Under the pieces are notes generated by a model. That model did no database searches, had not been told where the DNA came from, and saw only the letters and a program-made list of their open reading frames with translations. From an uncultured Eubacterium sp. (GTDB taxonomy: Bacteria > Bacillota > Clostridia > Lachnospirales > Lachnospiraceae): a stretch of DNA of 34,291 nucleotides. Position 1 is the stretch's first letter, and each line of letters starts with the position of its first letter. Made by a program: the position numbers and the translations under genes. The stretch spans positions 1 through 34,291 of the forward strand of contig CAJOOU010000082.1 of NCBI GenBank assembly GCA_905236735.1, read 5' to 3'. Shown piece by piece: positions 4,226 through 14,802 of this stretch.

Positions 4226-5899
4226 TTGGAATTAAAAAGTATTGATGCTTCGCTTCTTGCGAGAATGTTTTTGGCGGGGGCAAAGAATCTTGAATCTCAG
4301 AAAGAGTATATAAATGAACTCAATGTTTTTCCTGTGCCGGACGGTGATACGGGTACAAACATGACAATGACAATAATTTCGGCAGCGGGAGAGGTATCTT
4401 CCCTTGATGAGCCTACAATGACAAGCCTTGCAAAGGCTATTTCTTCCGGCTCACTTCGTGGGGCAAGGGGTAACTCAGGCGTTATCCTTTCCCAGCTTTT
4501 AAGAGGGTTTTCCAAAACCATAAGTGAATATGATGAGCTTAATGTAAGCATAGTTGCCGACAGTTTTGAAAGAGCTGTGGAAACGGCTTATAAGGCTGTA
4601 ATGAAACCAAAAGAAGGTACAATCCTTACGGTGGCCAGACGCACCTACGAAAAAGCGGCTGCAATGGCGCTTGAGACAGACGATTTTGTTGCCTTCGGTC
4701 AGGCTGTGCTTGATGAAGCGCAGGCTGCTTTGGATGAGACTCCGGAACTTCTGCCCGTACTTAAGGAAGCCGGCGTTGTAGATTCGGGCGGAACAGGTCT
4801 TTTGGAGTTTTTAAAGGGCTGTTATGATGTTGTTCTCGGTAAGGAGATCGATTATTCCCTGGCAGCTCCAAAAGAGTCCGGCAGACCAATGAAGATAACT
4901 GCCGAAACCGAAGCAGAAATCAAATTCGGATATTGTACGGAGTTTATCATTGTTTTAAACAATCCGGTGGCTCAGGATGAACAGATGGCTTTCAGAGACT
5001 ATCTCGAAGCTCTCGGAGACTCTATAGTATTTGTTGCTGATGACGAGATAATAAAGGTACATGTACATACGAACGATCCAGGTCTTGCATTGCAGAGAGC
5101 CCTTAACTACGGGTCACTGAGCAAGATTAAAATTGACAATATGCGCGAGGAGCACCAGGAAAAGCTGTTTAAGGACTCGATGAAACTTGCAAAAGAGCAG
5201 GCGTCCGAAAGAAAACAGTCTGCCGCTTTAGCTAAACATAAGGAGTTTGGATTTGTGACAGTGTCTGTCGGAGACGGACTTTCCGCAATATTTAAAGAAC
5301 TTGGTGCAGATGAAGTCATAGAGGGCGGTCAGACTATGAACCCGAGTACCGATGACCTGCTTAAGGCGGTAGAGAGGATAAATGCCGATACCGTATTTAT
5401 TCTGCCTAATAATAAAAACATAATAATGGCAGCCAATCAGGTTGCAGAGCTTGCTGAGGGCAAGGAGGTTATTGTTATACCTACAAGCACGGTTCCTCAG
5501 GGTATAACAGCTCTTATCAGCTTTTTGCCGGAGACATCGGCCGAAGAAAACAAAGAGGCTATGGTTAATGCGATAAGTGTCGTTAAAACAGGTCAGCTCA
5601 CCTATGCCGTGAGAAATACCACAATAGACGGCATGGAAATATCGGAAGGTGATTATATGGCTGTCGGTGACAAGAGTATACTTGCCGTGGGCAAGGATAT
5701 GAGACAGGTTATTGCTGATATGATGGATGAAATGGTGGATGACGATTCCGAGATTATTACCATTTATTCCGGAGCAGAGGTTTCAGATGAGGATGCGGCA
5801 TCTGTTGAAAAGATGATAGCAGAAAAGTATCCTGAGTGCGAGGTGGAACTTCACGAAGGCGGTCAGCCTATTTATTACTATGTTATTTCTGTTGAATAA
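4226..5899 (+). CDS. fakA: DAK2-domain fatty acid kinase FakA-like protein (YloV)
   Basis: NELNVFPVPDGDTGTNM DhaL motif, LRGARGNSGVILSQ, VVDSGGTGL; TTG start with RBS aaggagg; Asp23-YloV-RecG order. Confidence 0.92.
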   Translation: MELKSIDASLLARMFLAGAKNLESQKEYINELNVFPVPDGDTGTNMTMTIISAAGEVSSLDEPTMTSLAKAISSGSLRGARGNSGVILSQLLRGFSKTISEYDELNVSIVADSFERAVETAYKAVMKPKEGTILTVARRTYEKAAAMALETDDFVAFGQAVLDEAQAALDETPELLPVLKEAGVVDSGGTGLLEFLKGCYDVVLGKEIDYSLAAPKESGRPMKITAETEAEIKFGYCTEFIIVLNNPVAQDEQMAFRDYLEALGDSIVFVADDEIIKVHVHTNDPGLALQRALNYGSLSKIKIDNMREEHQEKLFKDSMKLAKEQASERKQSAALAKHKEFGFVTVSVGDGLSAIFKELGADEVIEGGQTMNPSTDDLLKAVERINADTVFILPNNKNIIMAANQVAELAEGKEVIVIPTSTVPQGITALISFLPETSAEENKEAMVNAISVVKTGQLTYAVRNTTIDGMEISEGDYMAVGDKSILAVGKDMRQVIADMMDEMVDDDSEIITIYSGAEVSDEDAASVEKMIAEKYPECEVELHEGGQPIYYYVISVE

Positions 5900-9847: not shown

Positions 9848-9934
9848 TCTAATATCTATTCCGGGCCTGTGGGTGGCGTATGTTTATGGCTCGCCTCAGC
9901 CTCAATATGCAAGGAGTTATTTTGGGGAGTTTTT

Positions 9935-11974
9935 ATGTACAGAGACGAAGAAAGGGAGACAATATCTCATATTGCGTATTTAGCCGTGCTTACTTTGCTC
10001 GGGCTTCTTTTGATAATCATTTCTTACATTTCAGGTTGGAATACGGCTTTTATACCGATTACATTCATAATGATAGTAAGCTGCTGGGCGTTTCACATTA
10101 TTAATCTGGGAACCGAAAGTCAGAGACTGTATTTTTATACAATATGTACAGGCATACTTCTTTTTTACTATGGAGCCCATCCCAAGGCTCTTACAGACAT
10201 TCCCATTGTTATCTGCCTTGTTGTCATAGCTCTTTCGGCAAAGAATGATATGAAGCTTGCGTATATGGCTGTTATTCCTTATCCGTTACTTATTATTTAT
10301 CATATATTTACGGGTTATATAGGGCCGGGAAGCGAGCAGATAGTTATATCAAGGCTCTTTCTCGGGATAGTTGCCGTTGCTGCGTCCCTTATTCTTGCCA
10401 AATCCATTTTTGTAAACAGAATTAATTCCGAGTCTGAATATAAGCAGCTTCAAAAAGAACTTGATGATGCTATGAATAATACCGAGAACTTTCTTGCAAA
10501 TGTGTCGCATGAACTAAGGACTCCGATAAATGCAATTAACGGTATTACCGAAATCATGCTTTCGTCAAAGCTTCCGGAGAATCTTATAAAAGATGCCGAA
10601 TCAATTCATTATGCCGGGAAAAGGATATATAACCAGATATCAAATATTCTGGATTTTTCGGAGATAACCACCGGAAGCATCCGGGTAGTGCCCCACGAGT
10701 ATGAAATTACCTCTGTGGTTAATGATGCATATGAGAATGTTATCTGGGGAGACTATGGCAAAAATCTGGATATTGCCATAGATATTGAATCGGATATTCC
10801 GGTTGTTTTATTTGGTGATGACGCAAAAATTAAGAAGATAATAAGTGAGCTCCTTGATAATGCGATTAAATTTACCTCGGTCGGCGGAGTATATCTCTAT
10901 ATAAGCAAGAGGGATGAAAAATACGGCATTAATCTCAATATAGATGTCAAAGATACCGGAAAAGGAATGAACCGCAGAGAGATTGAGGCTATTTATAAAG
11001 GGTATTATAAAAAAGACACCGAGAGTAACCGTACAACAAACGGTATGGGCATAGGCCTTTCTATAGTACATGCTCTTGCCTCGGCAATGGACGGATTTAT
11101 GAGTATAAGTTCCCGTGAAGGAGAGGGGACTCATGTGCACATATCCATACCTCAGGCGGTCAGAAACAAACAGCCTGCAATCTACCTGCCCGACAGCAGC
11201 AGATACAATATAGGATGTTATTTTAATACGGACAAATATGCCAAAAAAGAGGTTGCCGCATATTACGGGGCTGTTATTGAACATATAAGGGAAGGCCTGG
11301 GTATAAAGATAGCAACTGCTTCATCTTTCATAGAATTTAAGGAAATCATTAAATACAATAAGCTGTCCCATGTATTTATCTCCGAATGGGAGTATGAGAT
11401 GGACAGAAGATATTTTGAGGAATTATCAAAGAGTGTGCGCCTTTTGATGTTTTCGGCAACGGGTGATGCAGTTGACAATGCGGACATTCTTGTTGTTAAA
11501 AAACCTGTATTTGTCTTAAATGCCATAAATATTTTGGATGATGCCTATACCGGCGTAAAAAAGGAAAAAGAGCCTTTTGCTGATTACAGCCGGCTCAGGG
11601 TACTTGTTGTAGATGATGACTCAATGAATATCATGGTGGCCAAGGGAATACTTTCCATGTACGGGATAAGTGCCGAGAGTGCCACAAACGGCAGAATGGC
11701 GGTGGACAGATGTGCAGCAGAAGATTTTGACATTATTTTCATGGATCATATGATGCCGGGGATGGACGGCGTCGAAACTATGAAAAAAATCAGAATGCTA
11801 AGAAACGGATTTTATAACGATATACCTATTATTGCTCTTACTGCAAATGCGGGAAGCGGTGCAAGGAGTATGTTTTTTGAACAGGGATTTAATGATTTTG
11901 TTGCCAAGCCGGTTGAGAGCTCGGCAATGACAAGGGTTCTCAGAAAGTTTTCGGGAGGCGTGGGAAGCGTATGA
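9935..11974 (+). CDS. Membrane hybrid histidine kinase (multi-TM sensor, HisKA, HATPase, degenerate receiver-like region, REC)
   Basis: FLANVSHELRTPINAI H-box; NAIKF N-box; DTGKGM; GMGIGLSIV G-box; REC VLVVDDD...IIFMDHMMPGMDG...FVAKP. The 9869 ORF start is less likely than ATG 9935, which follows ggggag. Confidence 0.93.
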   Translation: MYRDEERETISHIAYLAVLTLLGLLLIIISYISGWNTAFIPITFIMIVSCWAFHIINLGTESQRLYFYTICTGILLFYYGAHPKALTDIPIVICLVVIALSAKNDMKLAYMAVIPYPLLIIYHIFTGYIGPGSEQIVISRLFLGIVAVAASLILAKSIFVNRINSESEYKQLQKELDDAMNNTENFLANVSHELRTPINAINGITEIMLSSKLPENLIKDAESIHYAGKRIYNQISNILDFSEITTGSIRVVPHEYEITSVVNDAYENVIWGDYGKNLDIAIDIESDIPVVLFGDDAKIKKIISELLDNAIKFTSVGGVYLYISKRDEKYGINLNIDVKDTGKGMNRREIEAIYKGYYKKDTESNRTTNGMGIGLSIVHALASAMDGFMSISSREGEGTHVHISIPQAVRNKQPAIYLPDSSRYNIGCYFNTDKYAKKEVAAYYGAVIEHIREGLGIKIATASSFIEFKEIIKYNKLSHVFISEWEYEMDRRYFEELSKSVRLLMFSATGDAVDNADILVVKKPVFVLNAINILDDAYTGVKKEKEPFADYSRLRVLVVDDDSMNIMVAKGILSMYGISAESATNGRMAVDRCAAEDFDIIFMDHMMPGMDGVETMKKIRMLRNGFYNDIPIIALTANAGSGARSMFFEQGFNDFVAKPVESSAMTRVLRKFSGGVGSV

Positions 11975-14802
11975 AAGGAAAAGAACATATAATTATTTCT
12001 GCCGACAGCATCTGTGACCTTCCGCCGGAACTTAAGGATAAATACAAAATCAGCTGTATACCGTATTATGTAAACACATCGGGAGCTCATCTTATTGACG
12101 GCGAAGAGGTTGATTCGGATGATCTTATGGTGTATCTGTCAAACAGCAGTAATATAGCTGTTTCCGCTTCACCGGAAGTCAATGAATATAATGCGTATTT
12201 TCGCAGCCTTAAGCTTAAGGCAGACCACATTATACATATCAGTGCCGGCAAAAATGTCGGCGAAGGGTATACAAGGGCAAATGAAGCTGCCAAAACCATG
12301 GAAAATGTTTATGTTGTTGAGAGCGGTCTTATTTCGAGCGGAATAGGTATACTTGCAATAAAAGCATCTGAATATGTGAGTGAAGGTCTGGCCGTTGATG
12401 AGGTTTTGCGTGAACTTGAACAGGATAAAAAGCTGATACCCGTGTCTTTTTATGCAAAATCGGGAGACAGGCTTTCAGAAAGCGGCAGGATTTCGGAAAG
12501 AATAAATAAAACAAGTAAAAGACTGGTTTCACATCCGATACTTGAGATGAGAAATTCTTCCATTTCACTAAAAAAGTTTGTTTTCGGCAGGGATAAAAAG
12601 GCGTTTTCCTCGTACATAAGAAGTGTAATGAAAAATCTCTGGAGGATAGATGATGAGACAGTATTTATTACCTATGCGGGTATGGATGACGACTCACTTG
12701 AGTTTATCAGGGATGAAATTAAAAAATACATAGAGTTTAAAAATGTTATTTTCCAGAAGGCGTCCGCGGCCATAGCGGTTAACTGCGGTGCGGGTACGGT
12801 AGGGATAATATTCTCATATAAAAGAAGTGCGCCGTCAAAACTTTCGGGAGAGGAGAACAAAAAACCGGGTTTAAAGGACAACCTCAAAAATTTTGCTTTT
12901 TATTTTTTTATAAATGAAGAATACGAAATCAGACATATAAGGGTAAATATCATCTTCAGCTTAATGATTATCGGAGGCGTTATATTTATGCGGCTCTCCG
13001 GGGTAAAGCTTATACCTGTGATTTTCTATGCTGTGGTTTTTGTTTTATTGTGGATGGTTTTTGCTGTTTTAAACCTGGCATATAAAATGCAGAGGGAGGC
13101 CTTGATGAGACACGAAGAGGAGCTGCTTTTTGCAAATAATGCAAAAAACACCTTCCTGGCAAATATGTCTCATGAGATTAGAACGCCCATAAACGGTATT
13201 ATTGGTATGGATACGATGCTGCTTCGGGAGTGCGGGGATGATAACCAGGCCCTCAAAGAATATGCAGTTAATATCAAGCATGCTTCAAACCAGCTTCTTG
13301 CCATTGTAAATGACATACTTGACATATCCAAGATAGAGTCAGGCAAACTTGAGGTTATTAATGCGGACTATAAGGTTTTCAATCTGATAAGGGATTGTGT
13401 AAATATAAATGAACCAAGGGCTGATGCCAAAGGGATTAAATTCATTTTAAAGGCGGATGGGGCTCTTCCTTCCGTGCTCTTTGGGGATGAGATAAGAATA
13501 AAGCAGATTATAAACAACCTTTTATCCAATGCCATTAAATATACCGAGAGCGGAAGTGTTATTTTTGAAGTAGGCTATAAGTTTATTAACGATGCAAGGA
13601 TTAATCTCGTGCTTTCCGTTAAAGATACGGGTATAGGTATTAAAACCGAAGATATGGCATCGCTTTTTGACAGCTTTACGAGACTTGAAGAGGGAAGAAA
13701 CAGAGCTATAGAGGGCACGGGACTTGGACTGAACCTGACAAGGGCTTTGGCGGAGCTTATGGACGGAACTATTTCCGTGGAAAGCGTATACGGCAAGGGA
13801 TCCACATTTAAGGCGGTTTTGCCACAGATAATAAAAAGTAATGTGCCTGTGGGAGACTTTAATAAAAGGCTTAAAGAAATTGATTTATCGGAGATGACCG
13901 AAAGAACCTATGTTTACGCACCTAAATGCCGCATTCTTGTTGTGGATGATGTGGAAATGAACCTTTTTGTTGCCAAAGGATTGCTTAAATACACCGGAGC
14001 TGTCATTGATACGGCATCCAGCGGTATGGAAGCCCTTGACCTGGTTGCAAAAAACAGCTATGAAATTATTTTCCTCGATCATCTTATGCCAAAGATGGAT
14101 GGCGTTGAGACTCTTAAAAAGATGATGGAGTTTGAAAATAGTATTAATGCTGCAACTCCGATTATCATGATGACTGCAAATGCAATTGCAGGTGCAAAGG
14201 AGGAGTATATAAAAGACGGATTTACGGATTATATAGCAAAACCGATTGTTGATAATAAATTCCAGGAGATTTTAAAAAAATATCTGCCTCAGGATAAGTT
14301 TACCGTGGTTAAATCCAAAAGCACTGAGGAAAACAGTAAGGAAGAAGAAACTGTTGCAGTGGATTTTTCGGAAGACATTATTGAAATCGAGCCGTATGAA
14401 GAAGAGGTGCTTTCGGGCAAAAATGACGCCTCGGAGTTTCCTTCTTTTATAAAAGAAATAGACTTCCTTGATACGGAGACGGGACTTAAGTTTTGTCTTT
14501 CGGATATAAATTTTTACAGGCAGATATTAAATGAGTTTATTACGGCAGATAAGACGCTTGTGCTTAACGCGGCCTTTGTCGCAAAAAACTGGAGCGATTA
14601 CAAGATATATGTCCATGCTTTAAAAAGCACCTCTCTTAACATTGGTGCCATAGCCCTTAGTAATGCGGCTCTTGAAATGGAAGAAAAGTGCAAACTCTCC
14701 GATACGGACTATATTATTAGTCATCATGATGAACTTATGGAAATGTATGGTGATATTCTTAAAAAACTCAAAAGAAGGCTGATGCTCCCTGAAACAGAGT
14801 GA
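11971..14802 (+). CDS. DegV-domain hybrid histidine kinase (DegV - 2 TM - HisKA - HATPase - REC - HPt)
   Basis: N-terminal DegV-like SADSICDLPPELKDKYKISCIPYYV...VESGLISSGIGIL...KASAAIAVNCGAGTVGIIF; H-box FLANMSHEIRTPINGI; G-box GTGLGLNLT; REC RILVVDDVEMN...DHLMPKMDG...YIAKP; HPt HALKSTSLNIGA. Starts in an ATGA overlap with the upstream kinase. Confidence 0.93.
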   Translation: MKGKEHIIISADSICDLPPELKDKYKISCIPYYVNTSGAHLIDGEEVDSDDLMVYLSNSSNIAVSASPEVNEYNAYFRSLKLKADHIIHISAGKNVGEGYTRANEAAKTMENVYVVESGLISSGIGILAIKASEYVSEGLAVDEVLRELEQDKKLIPVSFYAKSGDRLSESGRISERINKTSKRLVSHPILEMRNSSISLKKFVFGRDKKAFSSYIRSVMKNLWRIDDETVFITYAGMDDDSLEFIRDEIKKYIEFKNVIFQKASAAIAVNCGAGTVGIIFSYKRSAPSKLSGEENKKPGLKDNLKNFAFYFFINEEYEIRHIRVNIIFSLMIIGGVIFMRLSGVKLIPVIFYAVVFVLLWMVFAVLNLAYKMQREALMRHEEELLFANNAKNTFLANMSHEIRTPINGIIGMDTMLLRECGDDNQALKEYAVNIKHASNQLLAIVNDILDISKIESGKLEVINADYKVFNLIRDCVNINEPRADAKGIKFILKADGALPSVLFGDEIRIKQIINNLLSNAIKYTESGSVIFEVGYKFINDARINLVLSVKDTGIGIKTEDMASLFDSFTRLEEGRNRAIEGTGLGLNLTRALAELMDGTISVESVYGKGSTFKAVLPQIIKSNVPVGDFNKRLKEIDLSEMTERTYVYAPKCRILVVDDVEMNLFVAKGLLKYTGAVIDTASSGMEALDLVAKNSYEIIFLDHLMPKMDGVETLKKMMEFENSINAATPIIMMTANAIAGAKEEYIKDGFTDYIAKPIVDNKFQEILKKYLPQDKFTVVKSKSTEENSKEEETVAVDFSEDIIEIEPYEEEVLSGKNDASEFPSFIKEIDFLDTETGLKFCLSDINFYRQILNEFITADKTLVLNAAFVAKNWSDYKIYVHALKSTSLNIGAIALSNAALEMEEKCKLSDTDYIISHHDELMEMYGDILKKLKRRLMLPETE

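Follow-up and report, generated by a model that had tools for sequence, protein, structure and literature searches.

A DegV domain fused to a hybrid histidine kinase within a conserved two-kinase operon of Lachnospiraceae, possibly an undescribed membrane sensor controlling cyclic-di-GMP signalling

Characterised DegV proteins are fatty-acid carriers, and several of them are partners of the fatty-acid kinase FakA. In the carrier FakB1 of S. aureus, the carboxylate of the fatty acid is gripped by Thr62, Ser95, Ser171 and His270, while Arg173 is required for phosphorylation and Arg205 is required for the binding of FakA and of the membrane (PMC8892158, PMC9136124). A second relevant system is RpfC/RpfG of Xanthomonas, which consists of a hybrid kinase with REC and Hpt domains and a REC-HD-GYP regulator, and responds to the fatty-acid signal DSF (PMC3749722). 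Here, we describe a gene of the window (the whole stretch of 34,291 nucleotides that has been analysed), referred to as gene B, in which a DegV domain is fused to a hybrid histidine kinase, together with its co-encoded partner kinase, gene A. The order HisKA-HATPase-REC-Hpt of gene B is also that of TorS, BarA and ArcB, which give the best NCBIfam alignments of its kinase part; the scores, however, are far under the cut-offs of these families, the input domain is a different one, and the system is formed by a pair of proteins instead of one chain. Our search of the open-access literature has returned no paper on a DegV-kinase fusion; most subscription papers were outside this search, and a prior description is possible.

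The preliminary description had read gene B as a fusion of DegV, two transmembrane helices, HisKA, HATPase, REC and HPt, and this layout (Table 1) has been confirmed by Pfam, which places HisKA at residues 391-458, HATPase_c at residues 505-619 and Response_reg at residues 655-768, and by a hydropathy scan. The Hpt of the window (residues 865-911) scores 18.9 bits, under the Pfam cut-off of 24.6, but the homologous stretches of its relatives exceed the cut-off, and the phospho-acceptor motif VHALKS is found in it. The further claim that residues 1 to about 285 form a complete DegV fold has also held: Pfam matches DegV at residues 7-283 with 123 bits against a cut-off of 27, TIGR00762 is matched above its cut-off, and the predicted structure of residues 1-289 (pLDDT 96.3) superposes over its length with the fatty-acid-bound DegV/FakB structures 2dt8 and 5uto with a TM-score of 0.86. 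The domain is thus a member of the DegV family by full-length sequence as well as by fold, and it is under purifying constraint between orthologs (dS saturated). The hydrophobic helices of gene B are located at residues 327-345 and 348-366, and none is located N-terminal of DegV; this hairpin would leave DegV in the cytosol, as had been proposed. The direct wiring of DegV to a phosphorelay is likewise supported, and the phospho-acceptor histidine of HisKA, the HATPase boxes, the aspartate of REC and the histidine of Hpt are all present. Gene B is no assembly artefact, because an ortholog in another genome of the same genus (locus L161; loci are designated by L and a number) shares its length of 943 residues, its layout and its synteny, at 65% identity.

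Table 1. Features of the gene A/gene B pair, in positions of the window.
Feature	Position	Strand	Description and evidence
Gene A	9935..11974	+	TM-HisKA-HATPase-receiver-like-REC membrane hybrid kinase, without Hpt
Gene A membrane region	9974..10396	+	five predicted helices; hydropathy scan
Gene A HisKA	10487..10675	+	phospho-acceptor His present; Pfam, alignment
Gene A HATPase_c	10814..11155	+	Pfam, alignment
Gene A receiver-like (pseudo-receiver) domain	11207..11536	+	no Pfam match; predicted fold
Gene A REC	11600..11938	+	phospho-acceptor Asp present; Pfam, alignment
Gene B	11971..14802	+	DegV-2TM-HisKA-HATPase-REC-Hpt; 943 aa
Gene B DegV domain	11971..12825	+	residues 1-285; Pfam, predicted model, PDB fold match
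Gene B two-helix membrane hairpin	12949..13068	+	hydropathy scan
Gene B HisKA	13141..13344	+	Pfam, residue alignment
Gene B HATPase_c	13483..13827	+	Pfam, residue alignment
Gene B REC	13933..14274	+	Pfam, residue alignment
Gene B Hpt (VHALKS)	14506..14799	+	sole Hpt of the pair; Pfam sub-threshold, homologs pass

Two aspects had been overlooked in the preliminary description, namely the partner kinase upstream of gene B and a commoner layout, in which DegV is the last domain. The mechanical open reading frame of gene A spans 9869-11974, with a GTG start at 9869; the true start is probably the ATG at 9935, which is preceded by GGGGAG, the GTG being 66 bases too early, and the gene A ortholog at L161 is devoid of the additional N-terminal residues of the mechanical frame. 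The stop of gene A and the start of gene B overlap in the sequence ATGA; promoter-like and terminator-like sites were not above chance. The receiver-like domain of gene A is predicted with a pLDDT of 85 and its top PDB matches are mainly receiver domains (TM 0.5-0.59), while its profile comparison with REC was not significant.

The search for further architectures that combine DegV with HisKA, which the preliminary description had suggested, has yielded a conserved A/B operon pair at about 100 loci, and about one in five of the 120 genomes sampled from this family has a DegV-kinase fusion, as judged from open-frame length. Most of the named loci come from Lachnospiraceae; some others are labelled Oscillospiraceae, and a few bear different labels. 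A scan of genome contigs with the N-terminal sequence alone gave no matches, and the plasmid records contained ordinary DegV proteins only. In the commonest layout, gene B is a TM-HisKA-HATPase-REC-DegV protein and the upstream gene A ends in Hpt; in the layout of the window, DegV is located at the N-terminus of B and Hpt at its C-terminus, as is also seen in L092, L106, L107, L123, L143, L160, L161 and L163. The fused DegVs form one clade, in which the DegV-first loci make up one clade of their own (SH-aLRT 96-97), as do their gene A sequences (support 100). The DegV-first order of the window is probably derived, since the DegV-first clade nests inside the fused DegVs in the drawn, midpoint-rooted tree; DegV-first as the normal layout has been rejected, this being a minority clade.

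Several variants of the layout have been observed. Giant DegV-first relatives of 1561 and 1578 aa occur at L123:4983-9668, where dCache extracellular sensor domains are located between DegV and the kinase, and at L160:5808-10544, which belongs to the window's own genus. In L053, L066, L162 and L164, a single gene encodes an A-like kinase with DegV directly at its C-terminus (with no HisKA detected by Pfam in L053 and L066), and the same two genes, with products of about 459 and 554 aa, come next. In L068, DegV is a separate protein. A DegV-last pair also occurs in L104 and L150, metagenome-assembled genomes labelled as spirochaetes (Treponema, Avitreponema), either by mis-binning or by transfer.

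The location of Hpt follows that of DegV: an Hpt region is present on A and absent from B in all 80 complete DegV-last pairs, it is present on B and absent from A in all nine DegV-first or DegV-mid pairs, and no pair carries it on both proteins, although these counts overstate the evidence for a shared relay, because the trees indicate that independent relocations of Hpt have been few. The window, L160, L161, L163 and L166 have their Hpt on B, while L158 and L159 have it on A; in L057 and L167, where the histidine is missing from the Hpt of A, an adjoining REC-Hpt gene has an intact one. These separate REC-Hpt proteins are encoded at L057:7564-8541 and L167:14166-15140, and the REC of the former looks degenerate. 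In the alignments, the catalytic residues of the kinases and receivers of both A and B are conserved, apart from occasional gaps and, in B, two single substitutions. Judged from sequence, a single phosphorelay common to A and B is the likeliest arrangement, given that Hpt is never found twice in a pair and that the catalytic residues are intact in the two kinases and their receivers.

The DegV domain of gene B resembles the FakB/DegV proteins (S. aureus FakB1, 5uto and 6alw; T. thermophilus, 2dt8) in its whole fold and sequence family, but it is linked to a kinase and differs from them at the functional residues. Relative to FakB1, the window has Ser for Thr62, Gly for Ser95, Phe for Arg205 and Asn for His270, with Ser171 and Arg173 unchanged; the expected likeness of the pocket to that of FakB has stood for the fold, and has failed for the carboxylate network (T62>S, S95>G, H270>N), of which Ser171 is retained. 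Two of these changes extend to the other fused DegVs: Arg205 is lost in 104 of 105, and His270 is replaced by Asn in 100 of 105, with the histidine kept in three. Of 16 DegVs that are stand-alone or serve as references, 14 have Arg205; L068 and L090, both stand-alone, do not, and cluster with the fused DegVs. Ser/Thr62, Ser95 and Arg173 are all retained in 59 of the 105 fused DegVs, Arg173 being Arg in 72 of 106.

That the fused DegV acts as the fatty-acid kinase partner of FakA and reports to the histidine kinase is a very improbable reading. The YloV/FakA gene on which the preliminary description had based this link is real (4226-5899, about 6 kb upstream of gene B), it occupies the same chromosomal site beside L161, and the window retains Arg173; yet L161, of the same genus, is the only locus beside which the gene recurs, FakA being near 0 of 118 other loci, and the site looks like an ordinary Asp23-YloV-RecG neighbourhood. 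Moreover, Arg173 is Met in the L161 ortholog, the docking residue Arg205 is missing, the window segment that matches the membrane-inserting helix of FakB1 is polar, and the genome of the window encodes three stand-alone DegVs that retain Arg205. Coupling to FakA has been rejected on account of the changed carrier residues and of the gene neighbourhoods of the 118 other loci, which are without FakA, and a role of the fused DegV in the Fak pathway is considered unlikely from the sequence comparison.

The best reading of these residues is that DegV is a putative lipid or acyl sensor with a changed head-group site. It is possible, though rather unlikely, that the domain senses a small molecule other than a fatty acid, the Asn in place of His270 selecting a neutral or otherwise different head group: the replacement is clade-wide and is not random decay, but neither a candidate ligand nor a metabolic gene common to the neighbourhoods has been identified. 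The main rival to a sensor, to which we assign a similarly low likelihood, is that DegV has lost ligand binding and serves as a docking or bridging module, e.g. for the contact between A and B, while the membrane or periplasmic regions do the sensing. The changed head-group residues agree with such a module, as do the varying position of DegV (first, middle, last or separate) and the presence of its own dCache sensor domains in the L123 protein; the intact fold with its high-confidence model, the mostly non-polar or small interior positions of the fused DegVs and the joint retention of Ser/Thr62, Ser95 and Arg173 in more than half of them speak against it.

With respect to the output of the relay, a REC-HD-GYP gene is located directly upstream of gene A in 12 of the 36 pairs whose neighbour is visible (L039, L040, L041, L044, L046, L049, L052, L058, L123, L158, L159 and L160). 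Among the better matches listed from five of these genomes, such a gene occupies this position in two of 84 other hybrid-size kinases (Fisher 7e-6); the five genomes were chosen from those with HD-GYP-linked loci, and loci that are related do not count independently. A few further pairs have REC-GGDEF or EAL genes nearby. In the window, no response regulator or HD-GYP gene adjoins the pair, and HD-GYP proteins are encoded elsewhere in its genome. As a separate observation, MCP, CheW and CheA genes are located just upstream of the DegV-last pair of L055 (L055:13979-17906), and genes of similar sizes precede the pairs of L054, L061, L064 and L065.

Our best overall explanation, to which we attach about an even chance, is that A and B work together as a single phosphorelay at the membrane, in which DegV has been repurposed as a lipid sensor. 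The two co-encoded hybrid kinases, with their common single Hpt and single DegV, would act in a complex; DegV, formerly a fatty-acid-carrier fold, would be situated at the cytosolic side of the membrane as the sensor, having apparently lost its surface docking to FakA and the bilayer, with its fold kept and its head-group site altered. Lipid binding, most probably of an acyl chain, would alter the kinase activity of the complex, and the phosphate would pass from HisKA to REC, then to the one Hpt and to a separate response regulator; this regulator may often be a REC-HD-GYP protein, which would lower cyclic-di-GMP. Counting against this explanation are the partial loss of the carboxylate network, the few independent moves of Hpt behind the pair counts, the absence of a response regulator next to the window pair, and the occurrence of DegV at differing ends of B or, in L068, on its own, which fits a docking module equally well.

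The A/B proteins resemble RpfC/RpfG in their REC and Hpt domains, in the REC-HD-GYP neighbour that is frequent among the related pairs and absent beside that of the window, and in a possible fatty-acid-type signal, and differ from it by comprising two kinases with one common Hpt, plus a DegV domain; the resemblance is one of logic rather than of shown descent, and is drawn as an analogy, with no claim of membership. A more speculative and fairly improbable extension is that the pair is a separately arisen counterpart of RpfC/RpfG in Bacillota, where two kinases share one Hpt, a retired FakB domain reads a free fatty acid or a fatty-acid-like signal and HD-GYP regulators set the level of cyclic-di-GMP; if true, the pair would link host or community lipids to motility or to life on surfaces.

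What is new here comprises the conserved pairing of A with B, the swap of Hpt and DegV, the loss of the carrier residues and the linkage to HD-GYP genes, and the system is possibly an undescribed membrane sensor that controls cyclic-di-GMP signalling. With its single Hpt moved between two proteins or to a third gene, the A/B pair lends itself naturally to testing whether two kinases can share a relay, and a DegV clade taken into signalling would allow the question of lipid sensing by gut Lachnospiraceae, its existence as well as its mechanism, to be addressed directly.
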